Position numbers and translations under genes: made by a program
Notes under the pieces: model-generated
Told to the model about the DNA's origin: nothing
Seen by the model: the letters and a program-made list of their open reading frames with translations, nothing else
Databases searched by the model: none
In this document: positions 707-11,006 of the stretch, one piece after another
How the letters are laid out: each line of letters opens with the position of its first letter
Numbering within the stretch: the stretch's first letter is position 1
From: Bacillota bacterium
Lineage (GTDB): Bacteria > Bacillota > DTU025
Assembly (NCBI GenBank): GCA_012842765.1
Contig: DUWJ01000102.1
Span: 1 to 11,777, forward strand
Length of the DNA: 11,777 bases
Direction: 5' to 3'

Positions 707-1390
707 ATGAGTATCCTTGGTACTCTCGTCGTTGGTTATGTTGCCTGGCGGATCTACAAGGAGCATACAGAGCAAAATTCCCACTCTTCAGCCCCGCATA
801 AATCTCCCAGCTCAGACCCACAAGGGCAGAAGGGGGGTACAGTCACTGCGAATATGTCCGAAGGTACAGCCACGGCGTCCTTTAGCTGCGGAGCAGATGT
901 TCGCATAGAGAAGGTAGTAGGCGTAACCTATGACAACAGGCAGAGCGTGATAGCGGGAATGCGCGCCGGAGAGCAAGTGTTCCTTAGAAGAGAGCCTTCG
1001 AACAGGTATGATGCTAACGCGATCAGGGTAGAGCGAGCGGATGGGCGGCAAATTGGCTACCTGTCACGAAGCGTTGCCGCGCAATTGGCTGGCGGTCTTG
1101 ATAGAGCAGGTGGAGAGGTTGAGGGCGTCGTCTACCGACTCACAGGAGGAACCTCCGATTTCCCCACTCGTGGCGTGCGGATTCGGTTTGCTGTTCCCGG
1201 CGCTTCGACGGATTCGCGTAGTCACGATGTTCGACCAAATAGAAACGTGTATGCACGCTCCCGGCGGAATGATTGGGAATATGAGTCGGATTTCTTTGAC
1301 GAGCCGGATTGTGATGACGACGATTGGTGTGGCTGTGCGGATTATGACGAAGGCTTGGAAGACATGATTGAATGGGCCCAGAATCACTGA
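707..1390 (+). CDS. HIRAN-domain protein with hydrophobic N-terminus and acidic tail
   Basis: Residues about 66-163 form a HIRAN domain, recognised from the core R-E-P-x-N-R-Y-D-A-N-A-I-R-V (95-108) followed by D-G-R-Q-I-G-Y-L (112-119). HIRAN domains occur in Rad5/HLTF remodellers, where the HLTF domain binds the 3' end of single-stranded DNA, and also in bacterial proteins. Residues 3-17 are hydrophobic and followed by basic residues, suggesting a short membrane anchor. A low-complexity Ser/Pro/Gly/Thr linker (about 21-62) follows. The C-terminal about 40 residues are rich in Asp/Glu, with three Cys and several Trp. The start is set by TAGGAGGTG (691-699) 7 bases before ATG. It is the first gene of the three-gene cluster, 60 bases before the giant fusion gene, which suggests a recruiting or sensing partner. 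The HIRAN call is firm; membrane attachment is uncertain. Confidence 0.9.
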   Translation: MSILGTLVVGYVAWRIYKEHTEQNSHSSAPHKSPSSDPQGQKGGTVTANMSEGTATASFSCGADVRIEKVVGVTYDNRQSVIAGMRAGEQVFLRREPSNRYDANAIRVERADGRQIGYLSRSVAAQLAGGLDRAGGEVEGVVYRLTGGTSDFPTRGVRIRFAVPGASTDSRSHDVRPNRNVYARSRRNDWEYESDFFDEPDCDDDDWCGCADYDEGLEDMIEWAQNH

Positions 1391-1450: not shown

Positions 1451-4400
1451 ATGCGTAGCCTTTCGGTATACACCCTCAGAACCATACTTGCCCAACTGAA
1501 GAGTGGCAGGGGAAGCGCCTTCGAAACCCGGCTGCTATCCTTTGTGCACAAAGTTATTGCTCCCAACCCGGGGCAGTTCCAAGATGCTCTTCGAAGGATC
1601 GTGGCAGAGGACGGATGGTATGCATCCCAACGTATCCTTCAGGAGGCGCTCAGGACCCCGTTGGGACCATGGATTCCAGATGATGTCTTGCCTCAAATCG
1701 TTTTTCTTGACACGGAGATACACCCTCGCACAGGTAGAATACTGGAGTTCGCTGTTGCAGTCACTTCCGGTTTCCTGGACGAGCCAACCTATACTGTGCT
1801 GGAGCTCGACAAGGCCTCTGCCGGGCAACGCACGCCTGATGGGCGGGGATTGGCGCCGGCTTCTGTGACCAACATTCTCAAGCAGGCTGTGGGCCGACGA
1901 GGGGCATCATGTTGGTTGGTTGGACACAATATCGAGGCATTCGACCTGCCTGCCCTCAAGGATCAGGGGGTTGCCATTCCCGAGGTTAGCATCATCGACA
2001 CGCTGGAACTCTCGTTGGTCACCGAGCCTATGAGATCGCGGCATGCCCTTGATGGCCAGCACACTGCGGAGGCCGATGTAAAGGACAATATTGATCTTTT
2101 CAAGCAGCTCGACAAGTTTTGGTTGAGTGTAAGTGCAGACGAGCTGCGATGGCATATCCAGTGGAACTCCGCCGAAACAAGACTCGGCAGGTATTATCGG
2201 TGGGTTGCCGCAAGGAAAGGGGTGCCTCTAGGCCGCCTGCAGACTGTACTGCTCCCGGATCAGTTTACAATCGATGTGCCGTGGGACAGCCCGGGTGATT
2301 CACCCAACATCGAAGAGGGCTCGCATGAGAAGTCTGACATTGCCGGACAATTGTCAGAAGCAATGCTCCATCAAGTACCCGGAGCCATCGCCTGCCTGCC
2401 CAGATCAGTATCTGGACGTGACATTCCGGCTTTGATTGAATATGCCAAACAGAGCAACACCCTCATTGCTCTTCCGCGCCCCGCGATCGAGGACTACAGG
2501 CGTCTACAGCGCCGGAATATGACACTGAAGTGCGTGAACACTTGGCTGCATAATGACTCCGTAATCGACTGGAACCAGGCCTCTACATGGCTGATTGCAT
2601 CTCGCGAGCCAGGGCCTGCAGCTAGTTATATCGCACGATGGTACTTCGCCGGAGGCCGCATGAACGCGGAACTCCATCCTCTGGCAGCAGCGTGGGTTTC
2701 GCAAGCCTTACCCCGCGAATGTTTTATCAAGCCCGTTCCTAACGGAATTTCGGCTCCTTTGATCGACCATGCTGCGATACTTGCTAACCCTCCAAGACGT
2801 GGTCGAAGGGCTGTCATACTCGACGCCGAACAGCTTCCCGATTGCGTGCCTGAAGCTGCCGGCGAGAGAACCGAGATCGATTCGCCGGATAACGTGGTCT
2901 CGGCCTGTGCTTTGAGATTTGTTTCAGACAGAACCGTATGGAATCCGGCCACAGGCGACGGCAGAATCCGCATCGCAGTCACTCCCGAAGATTCACAAGA
3001 CCCAGTCTTCGAGGACTTCCTGGCGGTCTTGGGCAGATGCACACACCCTAATTCGCGAGAGGCGGTGGCGCTTCTTAACAGGATTGACAATGCAGATGAG
3101 GTCACCATCCTCGAAGTATTGGCAGATGCTGATGGGGCAAAGACCATATTGGTAATGAGGACTGTATCCCACGCCGATGCATGGCTTGCGGATCGGATTT
3201 CCGATCTTGGCAATTCGGATCCGCCGGCTGCAATATTCGCCGGTCCCGTGGCAGGCACCTTATTAGGCGACTGTCTGCAGAAGGTTGCGGGTTGTCCTGT
3301 TGTGCCATTCGCACATTCGGATGATGGATGCCACAGTCCCGGCATTGGAGTCTGCGAAGATGGCGCCAGTGGCACCCTGACAGGGCTTCCACGGGCTTTG
3401 CAGTCGGCGGCGAGGCGGATGGTGACACAGTTCGACATCGCTGGCCAAGGGTTAGATGCGTTTTGCGGGTGCTCGCCGGAGACTGCGGAAGTAATGGTGG
3501 CTGCGCTTAGAGCCGAGGGCTACCGGGCATCTTCATTTACCAGGTTTGGATCGCGCACGCGTACCGTGGAACGATTATCACCGGAAATCCCCGGGCTGTT
3601 CATTGCCGACTCCCGTCCTGAACCTTTGCCGGGCTATATCAGGCGTGCGATAATCCGGCGTTTGCCTTTCCCATCCCGAACTGATCCCGAAATCCTGGCT
3701 GCCTTGGCATCCGTCGATTCTGATGAAGACGTTTTCGCCAACGTGATACTCCCTAAGATGCTGAGGGATCTATTGCGCACAATTACAACATTGAGGGCCA
3801 TGGGTGTCGAACCCGTGCTTCTTGACAGGCGGGCGCTGACTCATACATCCTATAGAGCTCACATAGAAGCCTTAGTTGGTCCGATCGTATCGATCCCAGG
3901 GATCCCGCAGGAGAAAGAACCGCCCGGGATGGATGCGGTGAGGTCGGCCCTACAAGATGGCCTTCACAGGATCGGAGTGCATGGAGACTTCTCGTTGACC
4001 CGGGGCATTGATCCCACGCCGGTCTTGCGACGGTTCTATGGCAGCCAAGCGCAGTGGCTTCCGCACCAACGCGAGGTAGTGGACTCCCTCTTGGCCGGAG
4101 AGGACATCTTGGCGGTGATGCCCACAGGATCTGGCAAGTCGGCCTGTTTTCAGATACCCGCCTACATTTTCGGCGAATTCAACGATGACCTTACAGTCGT
4201 TATCTCTCCTCTGCTTGCCCTCATGCGCGATCAGATCAGAGGTCTGAGGCAGCGGGGCATATGGGGTGTGGATTGCCTCAACAGTGAGTTGGATCCAGAC
4301 ACCCGCTTAAGGGTGCTGAGGGATATCAGGTCGGGCTGGACTACGATTCTGTATATGGCGCCCGAGCAGCTCATGAACGACATTGTCTGTGATGCGCTTA

Positions 4401-7400
4401 TCGAGCGAGGCATAAGAATGCTGGTCGTAGACGAAGCGCATTGCATAAGCGAGTGGGGCCACGACTTTAGGCCAGAGTACAGGCGTATTCCACAATTTCT
4501 CGACTATCTATCGAGGGAGAGGGCTGAGCGTAGAGCCCAGGTGGCAGCATTTACGGCTACGGCGACTGTCGATACACAAAAGGAGATCTGCGAGATATTG
4601 GGAATCGATACTGAGCCCTTAATAACAGGCATACGCCGTTCGAACCTCCACCCCCGCATAATCTCCTTGAGCGATGATGAGGCTGCCGACATGAAGACGG
4701 AAACTATCGGCGAGTTTTTGGGGGACAGGCCGGGCGCGGACGGGGTGGTCTACGTTACAACACGTGCCGACTGCGAGTGCGTTGCAGGAAGGATCGGCGG
4801 CATGGCCGAGGCAGGCATTTCCCCGGAACGTGTGGATTACCTTCATGCAGGCGTAAGGGACAGGGGGGACCGCGAAAGGCGGTTCCTGGATGCAGATGGC
4901 CCAACGCAGGTGCTCGTAGCGACTACAGCGTTTGGCATGGGCGTGGACAAGCCGGATATCGAATGGATCATTCACTGGGATGCACCCGGATCGGTGGAGG
5001 CCTACTATCAGGAGATTGGACGCGCGGCGCGCGATCCGGGCATAAGCGCTGATTGCCTTGCTATGGCCACCAAATCAGATATCCACAGGAGGCGCCAAAT
5101 GGCGCGGTCAATAGATGATGGCCATGTGGAGGCCCTCGCGCGTCATCTGCGAACCTTGTATGCCGATGAGGACCGCGAGTTCCTGGTGAATCCTACTGCC
5201 ATGAAAGCCGAATGCGGACTAAAGGAAGGAGACGCGAAAGCAGCCCTGTTCGCCCTAGAGAGAGCTGGCATACTATCGATAGTTGCACGGGGGAATCGGC
5301 GTTCGAGCGTGTGCATGGATATCCCACGCGATCGAGCTGTGGCGCTTGAAGGCCTGTCACCTACTGAACACTATATACTTGAAGAATTGTTGCGAAACGG
5401 TGGCCGGGCTGTTCTCGATCCATTCGCGATTGCGCAGCGTCTTCCGATAGGGTGCAATTCGAGCCCGGAGGAAGTAGATAGAGCCATACGCGTCCTCATC
5501 TCCAGGAGCGTGCTGCGCTACAATTCCGACTTGGTCGCGAGACCTATGCCTGGTTCAACTGGGGAGGAGAGGGCAGATAGAATAGCCCTTTTGGACTCCG
5601 CCGAAATCATCCTTGCCCGGCATCTAGACGAGTTGCTAGCGGCAAACCACAACCGGACTGTCCGAATGACAGTATCGATGCAGCTTGATGCGTGCAGGGT
5701 GGCGGGCATCGATTTGGACTGGTTAGATCGAATCGTATTCGATTGGCGAATGCACGGAATAGTCCGTTCCCAACATAACCTTTTTGTGCTTTCTATCAGC
5801 CGTGAGCAGCAGGCAAAAGACTTGTCTTCCCGAGTGTCACGCAATCTGGAGAGGAGGAGGGCAGTACTAGACCATTGCGAGCAGGAGTGGGCTGGGGGTT
5901 CATCGACAGTTGAAGCAGACCTGATGCCACGTCAGCAGGTGAGAATGGCCTTAGGCTCTCTGGCGAGATTTGGGCTAGTGGAATGGGAGGACCTGAGCGA
6001 CCAGCGTGAAGCCTACAGAGTGCGATTTGTGGCCCCGGAGCGATATGATGCGTGCAGAATTGCCAACCTAAAACTCGGGCTGAGACAGACCGCCAACGAT
6101 GCCCGTATGAACTGCATGGAGCAGTTGTTTTCAGAGTCCCGCGAGCCGGAGAGTGTATGGACATTCCTGGAGGACTACTTCTCCAAACCCAGCCCCGGCC
6201 CGTACGAAGAGGCGGATGCCCGCATGATCCTGCGCGGACTCACTGAGCAGCAGCAGCGAGCGGTAACAGCCGACATCCGCGACCCCCTGTTGATCAACGC
6301 CGCGGCCGGCACCGGCAAAACACATGTATTGGCCAGGCGGATGCTGCTGATGCAGGCTGTGGACAAGGTAGATGGTGACAAAATCCTAGTGCTCAGTTTT
6401 AGCCGCGCCGGCGCTCGGGCCATAGGTGAACGAGCAGCTGAATTAGCGAGGGACATGAAGCTGAGACCTGTTCGAGCCATGACATTCCATTCGTTTTGCT
6501 ACCATATCCTCCGCATGCGAGGACTTGACTTATCACTTGTTGGGGTGAAACGAATCCCCAAAAAGTTGCAGACACACAATGTGTACCTGGACAACCTGTG
6601 GCTCAACCAAGTCCTTGTCGACGAATATGATTCGATTTTGGGGCAGTTGCCGCCTTCGGGCAGCCGAGCGGAGAGCGTGCCTGAGAAGATACGGGATTAT
6701 GCCGAGCTTTTCGATTCGATAAGATCGGGCCATCCAGACTTGGACTTCGTGGTAATCAAACCAGACGACCTGGATCGGCCCGGTGTGTCTAAGGAGCTTA
6801 GGCTCCGAGACGGGGAAGGTTCGATCCCCACTGAGGCGGTGAAGAGAGCCTTCACTCTGTACCTCGCACAGCTTCAGCGGCGCCAACTAATTGACTATGC
6901 TGGCATGGTCAGCGCCGCGCTGGAGGGTTTACGGTCTGATATTGCCCTGAGAACGCGGGTGCAAGCCGGGATATCCCATCTTTTGGTTGACGAGTATCAG
7001 GACACATCGAGGGCTCAAGAAGAAGTAATGCGCCTGGTGATAGGCCCAGCAACCGGGCTTACGGTTGTGGGAGACAGCGATCAGACAATATATTCGTTCA
7101 ACGGTTCCGATGTTCGCAATATCCTGCAATTCGAGGAGCGCAACAGACTCATATGGAGCCACAAGAAAACCAACATCGTGCCGCTTGAGGAGAACTTCAG
7201 GTCAGCCCCGCGAATCCTTGCGGTGGCTTCAAGAGTAATCGAGAGGAATAAGGATCGTTTGCCCAAACGGCTGGTGCCGGCCGCTGTAAAGCTTGCTAGC
7301 GAGAGGCAGGCCTACCGTGAACGTAACGCATTGGTGAGAGTTGCCGCAGTTTCCCCGGTCTGCGGGGCGGAGTCCGCCTTAGCGTGCGCTGCGCGCACCG

Positions 7401-8239
7401 TGGAGCAGTGGATATCCGAAGGGGTAGCCCCCGAGGAGATAGCGGTCTTGTCCAGGATAAACCCGGAATCCAATCCCCCCAAAGCTCTCCTCAACCAATT
7501 GCGTGAGTATTTTGCTACAGCTGGCGTACCGGTGGCCGATGTGCCCAGCGTCATAAGAAAGAACGACCCGATCCTGGGCAGGCTCAGGAAACTGGCCAAC
7601 AGTGATCCCCAGCTTAAGGTCGCCGACCTCCTCGATGGAATGCCGGCTACTGCCGAAAGATTCTTCAACGGCATCGACCCCAAGGAGGTACAGGCATTCC
7701 TGTATGACGGAGTGGAACGCGGGGTTTGCACAGTTGCCGAACTCTATGAAGAGATCGAAGCGCACCTCAGCGACAGAGCGGATAATGGGGGGTCCTCAGA
7801 GGCCGGCGTGACCCTCAAGACAATTCATCAAGCAAAAGGCGAGGAATACCGGCGGGTAGTAGTTATGTACTTGGCGCAAGGGCACTTTCCCCCGGCTCAG
7901 GCCACTGACATGGAGGAAGAGAGGCGGTTGTTGTACGTTGCCCTTACTAGAGCTGAGGAGGAAGTTACCGTCATAGGCGAGCCCGGCTCGCTGTTAATGA
8001 CAGAGTTGAAGGAAAGTCTGGGAACCGATGGGCTGGTGTTTAATTGGAGTGGGCGGCTCGACTCTCCCACACAGGGCGAGGCGGGTCTTTACGAAGGGTG
8101 TTTTGAAGAGGATGTGGCCTATTCGAACACCGAACCCATGGAGATCCTGCAAGACTCGGCATCGGATCGTTCGGATGCAATGACTGTGGCAGAGACTGGA
8201 CTCATGGAGATGTTCGAAGACTTCATCAAACCCGACTAA
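1451..8239 (+). CDS. Giant DEDDh exonuclease / degenerate DinG / RecQ / UvrD fusion helicase
   Basis: This single 2262-codon frame joins four nucleic-acid modules. An N-terminal helical segment (1-80) precedes a DnaQ-like DEDDh exonuclease (about 80-228). A DinG/XPD-like domain that has lost its ATPase residues follows (about 300-805), then a RecQ-type SF2 helicase (about 860-1270), a linker with likely winged-helix folds (about 1270-1590), and a UvrD/Rep SF1A helicase (about 1595-2190). An acidic tail ends the protein. Exonuclease, RecQ and UvrD catalytic residues all look intact. Exonuclease-DinG fusion is the layout of Bacillota DinG proteins; its fusion to RecQ and UvrD is far less usual. 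Expected activity is ATP-driven 3'-to-5' unwinding with 3'-end trimming in the cytoplasm. ATG 1451 is the most upstream in-frame start, with a weak ribosome binding site. No internal stop or frameshift is present. Between a HIRAN gene and a second UvrD-like gene, a repair or anti-foreign-DNA role is plausible but unproven. Confidence 0.95.
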   Translation: MRSLSVYTLRTILAQLKSGRGSAFETRLLSFVHKVIAPNPGQFQDALRRIVAEDGWYASQRILQEALRTPLGPWIPDDVLPQIVFLDTEIHPRTGRILEFAVAVTSGFLDEPTYTVLELDKASAGQRTPDGRGLAPASVTNILKQAVGRRGASCWLVGHNIEAFDLPALKDQGVAIPEVSIIDTLELSLVTEPMRSRHALDGQHTAEADVKDNIDLFKQLDKFWLSVSADELRWHIQWNSAETRLGRYYRWVAARKGVPLGRLQTVLLPDQFTIDVPWDSPGDSPNIEEGSHEKSDIAGQLSEAMLHQVPGAIACLPRSVSGRDIPALIEYAKQSNTLIALPRPAIEDYRRLQRRNMTLKCVNTWLHNDSVIDWNQASTWLIASREPGPAASYIARWYFAGGRMNAELHPLAAAWVSQALPRECFIKPVPNGISAPLIDHAAILANPPRRGRRAVILDAEQLPDCVPEAAGERTEIDSPDNVVSACALRFVSDRTVWNPATGDGRIRIAVTPEDSQDPVFEDFLAVLGRCTHPNSREAVALLNRIDNADEVTILEVLADADGAKTILVMRTVSHADAWLADRISDLGNSDPPAAIFAGPVAGTLLGDCLQKVAGCPVVPFAHSDDGCHSPGIGVCEDGASGTLTGLPRALQSAARRMVTQFDIAGQGLDAFCGCSPETAEVMVAALRAEGYRASSFTRFGSRTRTVERLSPEIPGLFIADSRPEPLPGYIRRAIIRRLPFPSRTDPEILAALASVDSDEDVFANVILPKMLRDLLRTITTLRAMGVEPVLLDRRALTHTSYRAHIEALVGPIVSIPGIPQEKEPPGMDAVRSALQDGLHRIGVHGDFSLTRGIDPTPVLRRFYGSQAQWLPHQREVVDSLLAGEDILAVMPTGSGKSACFQIPAYIFGEFNDDLTVVISPLLALMRDQIRGLRQRGIWGVDCLNSELDPDTRLRVLRDIRSGWTTILYMAPEQLMNDIVCDALIERGIRMLVVDEAHCISEWGHDFRPEYRRIPQFLDYLSRERAERRAQVAAFTATATVDTQKEICEILGIDTEPLITGIRRSNLHPRIISLSDDEAADMKTETIGEFLGDRPGADGVVYVTTRADCECVAGRIGGMAEAGISPERVDYLHAGVRDRGDRERRFLDADGPTQVLVATTAFGMGVDKPDIEWIIHWDAPGSVEAYYQEIGRAARDPGISADCLAMATKSDIHRRRQMARSIDDGHVEALARHLRTLYADEDREFLVNPTAMKAECGLKEGDAKAALFALERAGILSIVARGNRRSSVCMDIPRDRAVALEGLSPTEHYILEELLRNGGRAVLDPFAIAQRLPIGCNSSPEEVDRAIRVLISRSVLRYNSDLVARPMPGSTGEERADRIALLDSAEIILARHLDELLAANHNRTVRMTVSMQLDACRVAGIDLDWLDRIVFDWRMHGIVRSQHNLFVLSISREQQAKDLSSRVSRNLERRRAVLDHCEQEWAGGSSTVEADLMPRQQVRMALGSLARFGLVEWEDLSDQREAYRVRFVAPERYDACRIANLKLGLRQTANDARMNCMEQLFSESREPESVWTFLEDYFSKPSPGPYEEADARMILRGLTEQQQRAVTADIRDPLLINAAAGTGKTHVLARRMLLMQAVDKVDGDKILVLSFSRAGARAIGERAAELARDMKLRPVRAMTFHSFCYHILRMRGLDLSLVGVKRIPKKLQTHNVYLDNLWLNQVLVDEYDSILGQLPPSGSRAESVPEKIRDYAELFDSIRSGHPDLDFVVIKPDDLDRPGVSKELRLRDGEGSIPTEAVKRAFTLYLAQLQRRQLIDYAGMVSAALEGLRSDIALRTRVQAGISHLLVDEYQDTSRAQEEVMRLVIGPATGLTVVGDSDQTIYSFNGSDVRNILQFEERNRLIWSHKKTNIVPLEENFRSAPRILAVASRVIERNKDRLPKRLVPAAVKLASERQAYRERNALVRVAAVSPVCGAESALACAARTVEQWISEGVAPEEIAVLSRINPESNPPKALLNQLREYFATAGVPVADVPSVIRKNDPILGRLRKLANSDPQLKVADLLDGMPATAERFFNGIDPKEVQAFLYDGVERGVCTVAELYEEIEAHLSDRADNGGSSEAGVTLKTIHQAKGEEYRRVVVMYLAQGHFPPAQATDMEEERRLLYVALTRAEEEVTVIGEPGSLLMTELKESLGTDGLVFNWSGRLDSPTQGEAGLYEGCFEEDVAYSNTEPMEILQDSASDRSDAMTVAETGLMEMFEDFIKPD
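1688..2134 (+). other. Domain: DEDDh 3'-5' exonuclease (DnaQ-like)
   Basis: Within the fusion protein, Exo I is F-L-D-T-E (Asp87, Glu89), Exo II is H-N-I-E-A-F-D (Asp165), and Exo III is H-T-A-E-A-D (His204, Asp209). This gives the full D-E-D-H-D set and the HxAxxD signature of the DEDDh class. The domain is predicted active with two metal ions, removing nucleotides from DNA or RNA 3' ends. The same domain precedes the helicase in Bacillota DinG proteins. Confidence 0.9.
2348..3865 (+). other. Domain: catalytically dead DinG/XPD-like helicase
   Basis: The order and spacing of DinG are visible but the motor residues are not. Residues 315-324 occupy the approximate Walker A position and read P-R-S-V-S-G-R-D, with Arg323 and Asp324 in place of Lys-Ser/Thr. 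The DEAH segment, after a D-H-A-A-I-L-A-N stretch like DinG's N-H-A-L-L, reads V-I-L-D-A-E-Q-L-P-D (Asp458-Gln461). The DinG landmark L-P-F-P-S-x-x-D-P is kept (738 onward), as is L-L-D-R-R (790-794). The intervening 24-residue motif VI block (771-794) keeps its length but lacks the Gln, Gly-Arg and Arg of QxxGRxxR. A structural or DNA-binding role is inferred. Confidence 0.72.
4028..5260 (+). other. Domain: RecQ-type SF2 helicase without the zinc site
   Basis: Motif 0 has F-Y-G-S-Q-A-Q and Gln873. Walker A is M-P-T-G-S-G-K-S (Lys896). Motif Ia is S-P-L-L-A-L-M-R-D-Q. Walker B is D-E-A-H-C-I-S-E-W-G-H-D-F-R-P (994 onward), including the aromatic-rich loop specific to RecQ. Motif III is T-A-T-A-T. 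Motif V has T-A-F-G-M-G-V-D-K-P-D, and motif VI is Q-E-I-G-R-A-A-R-D-P (1187 onward). The four-cysteine zinc site that normally follows motif VI is absent: only two scattered Cys occur in the next 70 residues. Predicted to be an active 3'-to-5' DNA helicase. Confidence 0.92.
5261..6220 (+). other. Domain: inter-helicase linker, probable winged-helix modules
   Basis: About 320 residues join the two helicases. Repeated helix-turn-helix-like patterns with alternating Leu/Ile/Ala and basic residues are seen, for example around 1300-1365 and 1490-1530. This suggests winged-helix DNA-binding folds like the RQC domain that follows RecQ cores. No catalytic motif is seen. The assignment rests on pattern and position only. 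Confidence 0.4.
6233..8020 (+). other. Domain: UvrD/Rep-type SF1A helicase
   Basis: All core motifs are present: Q motif L-T-E-Q-Q-Q-R-A-V (Gln1601), Walker A A-A-A-G-T-G-K-T (Lys1623), motif Ia S-F-S-R-A-G-A, motif Ib T-F-H-S-F, Walker B L-V-D-E-Y-Q-D-T (Asp1847-Glu1848), motif III V-V-G-D-S-D-Q-T-I-Y-S-F (1872 onward), motif IV L-E-E-N-F-R-S, motif V T-I-H-Q-A-K-G-E-E-Y, and motif VI R-R-L-L-Y-V-A-L-T-R-A (Arg2167). About 600 residues make it a near full-size UvrD core, predicted active with 3'-to-5' movement. The remaining about 70 residues are Asp/Glu/Ser-rich. Confidence 0.94.
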
Positions 8240-8275: not shown

Positions 8276-9700
8276 GTGGAGGCAGTCGAACTCACAGAGG
8301 ATCAGCGTCAGCTTGTTGAGTATAGGGTGGACAAGAATCTCTTGATCAGAGGTGAACCGGGAAGCGGCAAAACCACAGTACTTGCTGCCAGGGCGGCGCA
8401 CATGGACAGCGCCATGTTCTCCGGGTCGGTTCTCGTGATTGCCTATAATAGGGCGCTAGCAGGGTACATCCGTAGGCTGCTCGGCGAGTTTGGCGGTTCC
8501 GCGAAGATTGATGTAGATACCTTTCACGGTTGGGCGATGACGTTCGCCGATTGCCTTGGCTATGGACCTGCGCGAATCGTGCAACGGACCGAGCGTGATG
8601 CCAAACTAGAGGAGATTCTGCGGCAAATGGGTCCGAAGTGGGGGCAGAATCACCTTCTAGGAGAACCCACTCAATTCTGGTCGCAGGAGGTTGAGTGGAT
8701 CATGGGCCAGGGCATCAGCTCCCTGGATAAATATATGAACGCCGTAAGAACGGGCAGAGGCACGGCGGTGCAAGTTAGGGGCGAGGACAGACAACTTGTT
8801 TGGGACGTATTCACCGCCTACCGTGACTGGCTGGCACATGATAATGCATGTGACATACACGACTTCGGAGGAATGGTGCGGCGGGCAGTGCTGAAGGCAG
8901 ACCGCAAGTATCCAGCAGACCTGGCTTACGACCACATACTCATCGATGAGGTGCAGGACTTCGACTTATCCTGGCTGCTCGCCTTGGCGCCAATGGCACG
9001 CGTGAGTGTCACGCTTGCAGGAGATCTCGGGCAGAGGATATATCGTCGATCGTTTACGTGGAGGGCTGCTGGCATAGACATTTCTGCAGCCAGTTCCCGC
9101 CAGCTGCGAGGTTCTCACCGCACAACCCGCGAGATAATGCAGGTGGCCATGGTTATTTCAACAAACACGGATCTTAAGGGCGACGAAGACTTCGTAGCAC
9201 CTTCGCTTCCCGATCGGGTGGGACCGAGAGTTTCACGGATAAAGCGGAGTGGCGATAGAATAGCTGAGAAAGCCGTAGTTTCTCGAGTGACTGAGCTAGC
9301 ACGTCGCTATCGAGGCGATTCCATCTGCCTGGCAGTCCCGTTCAACGCAAGGCTCAGACGCCTCACCGATGAGCTTATATCAGCCGGAGTGAGAGCTGTC
9401 AATGCAAGTGGCGATGCTCTTGCACATTTGGCAGAGGGGACAGTTGCAGTAACTACCTATCATCAACTGAAAGGGCTCGAGTTCGACCACGTCATCCTTA
9501 CAGGCCTCGATGATCACACAATGCCCGGCTTTTACTTTAGGATTGAAGATTCTGAAAGCGAGAGTGAAAAAGAACAGTTTTTGCGCCGTCTCGTATACAT
9601 GGCTATGACTCGTGCAAGGAAATCCGTTACGCTGGTCGGTTCAACCCCATTCTGCCGGTTCTTCAATGATGTGCCACCAGATTACATCGAGGAGATATGA
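8276..9700 (+). CDS. Compact UvrD-like SF1 helicase
   Basis: This 474-residue protein carries a full SF1 motor: Q motif L-T-E-D-Q (Gln10), Walker A G-E-P-G-S-G-K-T-T (Lys32), motif Ib D-T-F-H-G-W, Walker B I-D-E-V-Q-D (Asp224-Glu225), motif III A-G-D-L-G-Q-R-I-Y (249 onward), motif IV L-R-G-S-H-R (277-282), motif V T-Y-H-Q-L-K-G-L-E-F-D (394 onward), and motif VI R-R-L-V-Y-M-A-M-T-R-A (Arg446). At about two thirds of UvrD/PcrA length, its 1B and 2B accessory domains must be much reduced. Motif IV has Ser-His-Arg where UvrD has Asn-Tyr-Arg. GTG 8276 is chosen because GGGAGG lies 8 bases upstream. It starts 36 bases after the giant fusion gene, so it is probably co-transcribed and a partner. 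Size and fold class recall GajB of the Gabija defence system, but no GajA-like gene is present. Predicted ATP-dependent 3'-to-5' translocase. Confidence 0.93.
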   Translation: MEAVELTEDQRQLVEYRVDKNLLIRGEPGSGKTTVLAARAAHMDSAMFSGSVLVIAYNRALAGYIRRLLGEFGGSAKIDVDTFHGWAMTFADCLGYGPARIVQRTERDAKLEEILRQMGPKWGQNHLLGEPTQFWSQEVEWIMGQGISSLDKYMNAVRTGRGTAVQVRGEDRQLVWDVFTAYRDWLAHDNACDIHDFGGMVRRAVLKADRKYPADLAYDHILIDEVQDFDLSWLLALAPMARVSVTLAGDLGQRIYRRSFTWRAAGIDISAASSRQLRGSHRTTREIMQVAMVISTNTDLKGDEDFVAPSLPDRVGPRVSRIKRSGDRIAEKAVVSRVTELARRYRGDSICLAVPFNARLRRLTDELISAGVRAVNASGDALAHLAEGTVAVTTYHQLKGLEFDHVILTGLDDHTMPGFYFRIEDSESESEKEQFLRRLVYMAMTRARKSVTLVGSTPFCRFFNDVPPDYIEEI

Positions 9701-10140: not shown

Positions 10141-10500
10141 GTGGCTAGGGCTGGATACCTAAAGTGGCTGATCGCGCTGGGGCGGTTTCTCAGGGATCAT
10201 GGTATCGTGTTGGAGTGGCGCTGTCGTGGAGGTGTTCCCAAAATGGGCGATTTGGATCCAGCCGTGCCTTGCCTGGTTGAGATCGCTGAGTATGGTTTGG
10301 AGACCGAAGACGTGCTTGTGACAGAGAGACATGATCCACGTGTTATCTACGAGAGGCGTATAGTAGCCGGAAGGGATAAGTGGGTTGGGGTGGCGGCAGG
10401 AAGCTCGATCACCTCGTCGGGCTTCCTGCTAGACGATCTAGTTGGCGGTCGTGTAAATCAAAGCCCTAGCGCCTGTATGAGCCATAATTTCATGTCGTAG
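10141..10500 (+). CDS. Hypothetical protein, 119 residues
   Basis: The frame opens after a TGA at 10114 and its first start is GTG 10141, about 10 bases after AGAAGAGG (10123-10130). The first about 80 residues look protein-like: an amphipathic N-terminal helix, then alternating hydrophobic and charged residues including E-D-V-L-V-T-E-R. The last about 15 residues lie antisense to the end of the convergent gene and look random. This suggests either a chance tail or a gene truncated at its 3' end. No family is recognised, there is no membrane segment, and no functional link to the helicase cluster is evident. Confidence 0.42.
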   Translation: MARAGYLKWLIALGRFLRDHGIVLEWRCRGGVPKMGDLDPAVPCLVEIAEYGLETEDVLVTERHDPRVIYERRIVAGRDKWVGVAAGSSITSSGFLLDDLVGGRVNQSPSACMSHNFMS

Positions 10501-11000
10501 GCGACCTGCAATTGTGTTTCAGCCATGTGCAGACCTTGCTCTATGAGGATTCCCCAGATCTGATGCTCACTGGATGGTGCGAGTCCGGCGTAGCCAATGG
10601 CCAATGTGGTGGAACTGATGGTGTACCCTGCTGTGCTCATCCGTTGGGCATACAAGAAAAGATGATTCCATGTATCCCACTGCTCCGACATGACGCCTTC
10701 CTTTTCGAGCACAGCGAGAGCCGTATCTTTCAAGACGTATAGCTCATCTAAGGCCGCTTGAATGCGGTCAAACAAGGGCTCTACACCCATCCACATCTGT
10801 ACACTTGGTTTCCCGGAATGGTCAAGATACACTCCAGTCATCTTGCTATGCACGTCGCTCAGCTCAAACCAGATATCGGAGCATCTGACGTACATCGCCC
10901 ACTCATCAGCCTCATCAAAGGCCGCCACTGGCGAGGTTGCGATTGCCATGATGAGCGTTAGCAAGACTGCTGTCTTCAAACGTTTCTTTACTTGCAACAC
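10458..11000 (-). CDS. Putative secreted helical protein, 180 residues
   Basis: The protein begins with a typical Sec signal peptide: basic K-K-R-L-K, a hydrophobic core (about 10-21), then S-P-V-A-A with likely signal peptidase I cleavage after Ala27. The mature part of about 153 residues is rich in Leu, Ala, Met and Trp, predicted mostly helical, with one Cys, and is probably extracytoplasmic. I recognise no family. GTG 11000 is preferred because AAGGAG (complement of 11008-11013) lies 7 bases upstream; the alternative GTG at 11006 is only one base from it. The gene runs opposite to the helicase cluster and its 3' end overlaps the convergent ORF at 10458-10500 by 43 bases, so at least one of those two 3' ends may not be coding. 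No link to the helicases is evident. Confidence 0.65.
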   Translation of the reverse strand: MLQVKKRLKTAVLLTLIMAIATSPVAAFDEADEWAMYVRCSDIWFELSDVHSKMTGVYLDHSGKPSVQMWMGVEPLFDRIQAALDELYVLKDTALAVLEKEGVMSEQWDTWNHLFLYAQRMSTAGYTISSTTLAIGYAGLAPSSEHQIWGILIEQGLHMAETQLQVAYDMKLWLIQALGL

Positions 11001-11006
11001 GTGCAC

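Follow-up and report, generated by a model that had tools for sequence, protein, structure and literature searches.

A rare variant of the exonuclease-RecQ-UvrD architecture with a putative DinG-like pseudo-helicase built into it

What does a single bacterial protein do with an exonuclease and three helicase folds? The question is raised by the large gene of the window, by which is meant the whole stretch of 11,777 nucleotides of Bacillota DNA analysed here. The gene (1451..8239, + strand) encodes a predicted protein of 2262 residues that reads, in order, as an exonuclease, a DinG-like putative pseudo-helicase, a RecQ helicase and a UvrD helicase. The analysis presents it as a rare variant of a widespread and apparently undescribed architecture consisting of exonuclease, RecQ and UvrD (here exo-RecQ-UvrD).

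The initial annotation described one uninterrupted frame, and this is correct: the gene runs from an ATG at 1451 to a stop codon ending at 8239, with 2262 codons and zero internal stops. In 50 shuffles of the window the longest stop-free run was 308 codons. The source genome is a 2.19 Mb draft in 482 contigs, 87% complete, and such a draft might contain separate genes fused by an error of assembly or gene calling. This is very improbable here, because the independent genome G043, from another class of the same phylum, has a full-length homologue (query residues 12–2255) that is approximately 41–44% identical end to end (40.9% in a local alignment, 44% in a global one). The identity is spread across all the domains: 46.5% for the exonuclease, 36.1% and 39.1% for the two halves of the DinG-like region, 57.6% for RecQ, 27.4% for the RecQ-UvrD linker and 52.0% for UvrD. 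The homologue also keeps all the catalytic motifs of the exonuclease, RecQ and UvrD. An assembly join of separate genes, which the initial annotation had named among the findings that would overturn it, is thus contradicted.

The protein was found in 3 of 398 phylum genomes, two of these being the query's own rows. By class, it is present in one of the two genomes in the class of G043 (G043 itself) and in one of 17 in the class of genome G012 (G012 itself). In G012 there is an N-terminal piece at a contig end, with a stop inside, and a remnant at a second contig end that holds residues ~245–520, 714–745 and 1613–1657 of the large protein, together with the last 20 residues of the product of the small UvrD gene discussed below. 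We read these pieces (L020:5595-6824 and L019:5099-5830) as a decayed copy of the large gene and small UvrD gene pair, a mis-assembly being less probable. They have internal deletions, and exonuclease motif II ends in Glu. By eye, the contig of L020 also bears an rpoC-like gene.

The exonuclease domain covers residues ~80–232 (1688..2146, + strand), and is identified by its motifs, a profile match and a tree. The residues of the DEDDh pattern (D-x-E, D, H-x4-D) are D87, E89, D165, H204 and D209, all of them conserved in G043. The Pfam scan of the large protein listed no exonuclease; PHROG 192, annotated as 'DNA polymerase exonuclease subunit', matches residues 153–222 (7.5e-7). The RecQ helicase core is at residues 855–1225 (4013..5125, + strand; NCBIfam TIGR00614), with motifs K896 and DEAH at 994–997. 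The recQ_fam model scores 270.2 bits over residues 859–1233, against a cut-off of 219.8; at E 0.01 Pfam lists no RQC or HRDC domain behind the core. The linker between RecQ and UvrD, residues 1241–1590 (5171..6220, + strand), has a weak winged-helix signal, with a MarR_2 match at residues 1301–1332 that is below its cut-off. The UvrD/PcrA-type SF1 helicase at residues 1591–2190 (6221..8020, + strand) matches PF00580 (4.6e-47) and PF13361 (9.7e-19) and contains K1623 and DEYQD at 1847–1851. UvrD N- and C-terminal domains above their cut-offs, a Walker A, a DExQD and a motif VI mark it as SF1A, while it does not score as an equivalog of PcrA, UvrD or Rep (196.9 bits against 911.2 for pcrA). The motifs of the exonuclease, RecQ and UvrD are thus intact, with SF2 and SF1 motors in one chain, as was first proposed, and the positions given for Asp87, Lys896 and Lys1623 are correct.

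The DinG/XPD-like region lies between the exonuclease and RecQ, at residues ~258–815 (2222..3895, + strand). Pfam gave no match within residues 241–850 at E 10. A profile of two sequences (window and G043) was compared with DinG proteins of the phylum using hhalign. Residues 258–840 scored 68.4, whereas 100 column shuffles of these residues reached 25.2 at most; residues 501–840 alone scored 67.9 (95%). The best supported part is the second motor domain, residues ~590–805 (3218-3865, + strand). Residues 258–500, corresponding to the first motor domain, scored 16.6, which lends that domain no independent support, and we infer that it is present. The DinG/XPD fold originally assigned here is therefore supported for the second motor domain but not for the first on its own. 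Other segments of the protein scored 20.2 (linker), 28.6 (UvrD), 42.4 (exonuclease) and 53.7 (RecQ, over 51 columns around Walker A) with the same DinG profile. Structure prediction, which had been proposed as a check, points the same way in that Foldseek and VIA-align both give DinG/XPD as top matches, for a low-confidence model whose alignment included DinG rows; the pLDDT values of the two models were 45 and 54.

In an alignment with 19 DinG rows, the Walker A Lys, DEAH and QxxGRxxR are not kept in this region. The DEAH position reads LD-AEQ, motif VI is without its Q, G and R, and the NHxLL of DinG becomes DHAAIL; the LPF region is retained. Because these ATPase residues are lost, the region is probably a pseudo-helicase and not a third motor: to judge from the sequence, it is likely to be a DinG-derived fold with a dead ATPase. 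It is not the only DinG of its genome, since a separate protein of 909 residues (C376, L105:744-3470) matches both motor halves.

Without the DinG part, the architecture recurs on plasmids and on viral contigs. A tblastn search against plasmids gave 2807 records, and each of the 20 best listed matches runs across RecQ as well as UvrD; 21 of 128 plasmid records cover 80% or more of a Nostoc exo-RecQ-UvrD relative. Eleven plasmid proteins were picked by hand, nine of them with exonuclease motifs, from hosts in the Cyanobacteriota, Alpha- and Gammaproteobacteria, Bacteroidota, Campylobacterota and Deinococcota. A twelfth member is a frame of 1605 residues in G022, a genome of the same phylum. On viral contigs, 12 loci are near full length among the best 80 of 224, with L115 covering residues 2–965; 11 of the first 13 viral loci have the two Walker A motifs as well as motif II of the exonuclease. 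The proteins have around 1580–1780 residues and are often annotated as 'RecQ family ATP-dependent DNA helicase'.

Members such as those of Nostoc sp. C052 (WP_179069529.1), Thiothrix (WP_207249163.1) and Bacteroides finegoldii (WP_022275194.1) share with the window protein the domain order exonuclease, RecQ, UvrD and the motifs GHN-x3-[F/H]D and DTL, and likewise have a long RecQ-UvrD linker, of ~370–450 residues. They differ in the distance from exonuclease motif III to RecQ, which is 143–170 residues in the nine group members with an exonuclease and 605–648 in the window and G043 proteins, and in the stretch after UvrD motif VI, which is 134–178 residues in the group and only 76–93 in the window and G043. 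The C-termini of the 11 plasmid proteins resemble HIRAN (score 35.8, 81%; maximum 14.9 in 97 shuffles), and Pfam at E 10 found no HIRAN in two plasmid proteins scanned whole. In the window HIRAN is a separate gene, and it is because the C-terminal HIRAN-like domain is not there that we call the window protein a variant and not a plain member of the group. Seen by eye, the motif III His is kept in the window clade, whereas this general base is replaced by Asn in the nine plasmid relatives, in G022 and in all but one of the 11 viral ones. Nearly all of the relatives without the DinG region (L007, L008, L069-L075, L093 and L108-L120) thus carry Asn.

The initial annotation could recall no characterised protein with the full domain order. 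In the open-licence PMC literature we found no paper on a DEDDh-DinG-RecQ-UvrD protein, and recognised none as describing an exonuclease-RecQ-UvrD protein or an experiment on any member, although the latter order is widespread in the databases. Thus an exo-RecQ-UvrD-HIRAN architecture that recurs on plasmids and viral contigs has yet to be found described in that literature, and the window holds the version with a built-in putative pseudo-helicase. As far as its accessible portion goes, a 2025 review of DinG-like proteins (PMC11981726) distinguishes ten DinG subgroups with no RecQ or UvrD fusion; that portion has zero occurrences of 'recq' and three of 'uvrd', all naming UvrD as a separate helicase.

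The origin of the DinG-like region depends on the kinship of the exonuclease. Exonuclease-DinG fusions (ExoDinG) such as the DinG of S. aureus and B. subtilis likewise carry a DinG fold behind a 3'-5' exonuclease, and the initial annotation took the N-terminal half of the protein for such a Bacillota fusion to which RecQ and UvrD had been added. The DinG part would then have been inactivated later. The shared order favours this, and the exonuclease profile does match the ExoDinG exonuclease significantly (97%, score 69.1). Its match to the exo-RecQ-UvrD exonucleases is stronger (99%, E 2.4e-18, score 111.5). A tree of 30 exonucleases was made, with 13 rows from the window, G043, G012 and ten exo-RecQ-UvrD proteins, and 17 rows from 8 ExoDinG and 9 other exonucleases, PolC-like ones included. 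The first 13 rows fall on one side with support of 99/100, in a tree with long branches, and the ExoDinG rows intermix with the other exonucleases of the phylum. A clade of window plus ExoDinG exonucleases is 15.9 log units worse, with a p-AU of 0.158 that does not reject it. The spacing of motif II, from HN to [FH][DE], is three residues in 13/13 of the window clade and exo-RecQ-UvrD and two in 17/17 of the others. It thus looks from these comparisons as though the window exonuclease shares its descent with those of exo-RecQ-UvrD and is unlike that of ExoDinG, and an ExoDinG origin, which the higher score of the window RecQ core against ordinary RecQ would also fit, appears improbable. Because the exonuclease falls with the exo-RecQ-UvrD group, it is DinG that looks like the added part.

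The ExoDinG model matches 26 of 31 genomes, from which we take the phylum to be Bacillota-like, although the named controls of the search match too; several matches are to the exonuclease part, in frames of ~1400 residues that look like PolC. ExoDinG is without RecQ and UvrD, its exonuclease is on the other branch, and in S. aureus it has helicase activity, going by the accessible text of PMC12345164, whereas the window region has no ATPase motifs. A parallel for this region is the sDinG of the Nostocales, described in the accessible portion of PMC11981726 as having a DinG fold without ATP-binding residues, in a short three-domain protein which, unlike the window protein, has no nuclease.

The window protein is flanked by two further genes, also on the + strand. 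The upstream gene (707..1390, + strand) encodes a HIRAN-domain protein of 227 residues, with HIRAN at residues 70–146 (PF08797, E 2.2e-17). It ends 60 bases before the large gene, and a Shine-Dalgarno-like AGGAGGTG is recorded before its ATG. By eye, the protein has an apparent N-terminal hydrophobic helix and an acidic tail. The downstream gene (8276..9700, + strand), 36 bases after the large gene and with a GTG start, encodes a small UvrD-like SF1 helicase of 474 residues (PF00580 3.7e-14, PF13361 1.9e-13). A small UvrD gene is also downstream of the large gene in G043, in two frames; the split (L018:1393-2810) is near a Lys-rich stretch and could be a sequencing error or decay. No HIRAN gene was found in G043, which is 86% complete. 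HIRAN is present in 14 of 61 related genomes, G000 (the source genome) and G012 included, and the G012 relative of the HIRAN protein, 43% identical over 159 residues, is on another contig. The linkage of HIRAN takes three forms: a neighbouring gene, the HIRAN-like C-terminus of the plasmid family, and a RecJ-HIRAN-helicase fusion in the phylum. The last, identified by a Pfam scan in G036 (L094:471-4127, 1219 residues), resembles the window in joining nuclease, HIRAN and a RecQ-type helicase core, and differs in having a RecJ (DHH) nuclease and no UvrD. ORFs about as long, with HIRAN and RecQ matches, are found in L095 and L096, each by eye upstream of an apparent RelA/SpoT gene.

Helicases of the RecQ and UvrD families run 3'-5', and HIRAN domains bind 3' DNA ends. 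The accessible parts of the reports on S. aureus and B. subtilis DinG give an exonuclease of this type as 3'-5' (PMC12345164, PMC12525004), and the S. aureus ExoDinG structure was solved with ssDNA bound (PMC12345164). We hypothesise that the window protein is a rare exo-RecQ-UvrD variant that acts with the HIRAN protein and small UvrD helicase encoded beside it and trims 3'-ended strands while unwinding, a proposal that in our judgement has an even chance of being right. HIRAN would recognise 3' DNA ends or forks, RecQ would open the duplex and UvrD would drive translocation. If the polarities hold, a 3' end would trail behind motors that travel 3'-5' and could be fed to the exonuclease, so that the 3'-ended strand would be removed during opening. 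The dead DinG region might be a passive guide for the single strand between motors and nuclease. The machine for unwinding and resection that was first envisaged is thus retained as regards its parts, with exonuclease, SF2 and SF1 motors in one protein, while the shared polarity suggests 3'-strand trimming more than classical 3'-tail resection. Candidate settings would be reversal of D-loops or flaps, trimming of forks and destruction of foreign DNA.

More tentatively, and with the balance somewhat against it, a DinG helicase may have been incorporated into an exo-RecQ-UvrD machine and lost its ATPase there, its fold surviving as a clamp on the single strand. Through this clamp the 3' tail would pass from two live 3'-5' motors to the exonuclease, and the HIRAN protein would be a separate sensor of 3' ends. 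If true, one helicase would be serving as a structural element of another helicase-nuclease. The RecQ and UvrD trees do not group the window pair (window and G043) with the exo-RecQ-UvrD family, which counts against our best explanation. The family has its own side of a branch supported at 99/99 for RecQ and 81/93 for UvrD, with the window pair outside, and a single clade is not rejected in either case (p-AU 0.42 and 0.299). The RecQ and UvrD cores of the window protein also obtain better scores with ordinary RecQ and PcrA than with exo-RecQ-UvrD.

In human WRN a DEDD exonuclease is fused ahead of RecQ, both acting 3'-5'; the exonuclease is DEDDy, RQC and HRDC are present, and UvrD and DinG are not. 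The window protein shares with it the exonuclease before RecQ and would have a WRN-like net effect, removal of 3'-ended strands during unwinding; it adds UvrD and the DinG-like region. In layout, the exo-RecQ-UvrD-HIRAN architecture resembles a bacterial equivalent of WRN extended by an SF1 motor. AddAB and RecBCD are likewise multi-motor helicase-nucleases, but with a PD-(D/E)XK nuclease, different subunits and 3' tails left behind. The large protein scores 95.3 bits with AddA, against a cut-off of 707.65.

Two other functions deserve consideration besides trimming in this manner. The protein could be a defence nuclease-helicase that starts at the ends of phage or plasmid DNA to unwind and destroy it, as its rare, patchy presence (3/398 genomes) and decay in G012 would fit. 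A restriction, CRISPR or toxin gene is found in 6 of the 12 exo-RecQ-UvrD plasmid regions viewed (type I restriction, Cas6, HipA in two regions, BrnT and VapC), but the 12 were hand-picked, two are closely related, six have no such gene and there was no control set. PADLOC matches HIRAN to PDC-M03B (4.8e-8) and the RecQ core to DpdF (2.5e-101); these are shared domains only, and NCBIfam DpdF gives 181.2 bits against a cut-off of 550. Moreover, exo-RecQ-UvrD is itself carried on viral contigs and plasmids, which fits a tool of the element equally well, and we regard defence as possible though doubtful. That location is also an argument for a helper in the replication or maintenance of a mobile element, now remaining in the host chromosome. 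In Aliarcobacter, exo-RecQ-UvrD adjoins replication and partition genes, and the HIRAN and small UvrD proteins match phage families (phrog_27141, 1.1e-12, and phrog_1967, 3.3e-44). Against this, the five scanned proteins of the short contig include no recognisable replication-initiation, transfer or virion gene, and we consider such a role unlikely.

It is worth adding that the window contains two more ORFs, at 10458-11006 (-) and 10141-10500 (+), neither with a Pfam or PHROG match, the first of which has by eye a signal-peptide-like start. A relative of the small UvrD helicase (30.8% identity) is found in Geobacillus zalihae plasmid pJS1-2 (L068, NZ_CP129218.1, 440-7413), where it is downstream of a UvrD helicase that by eye looks AddA-like. 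Also upstream of it there is a protein of 909 residues with a C-terminal cysteine cluster and no Pfam match, which by eye looks AddB-like. The small UvrD helicase may be a more general companion of enzymes that process DNA ends.
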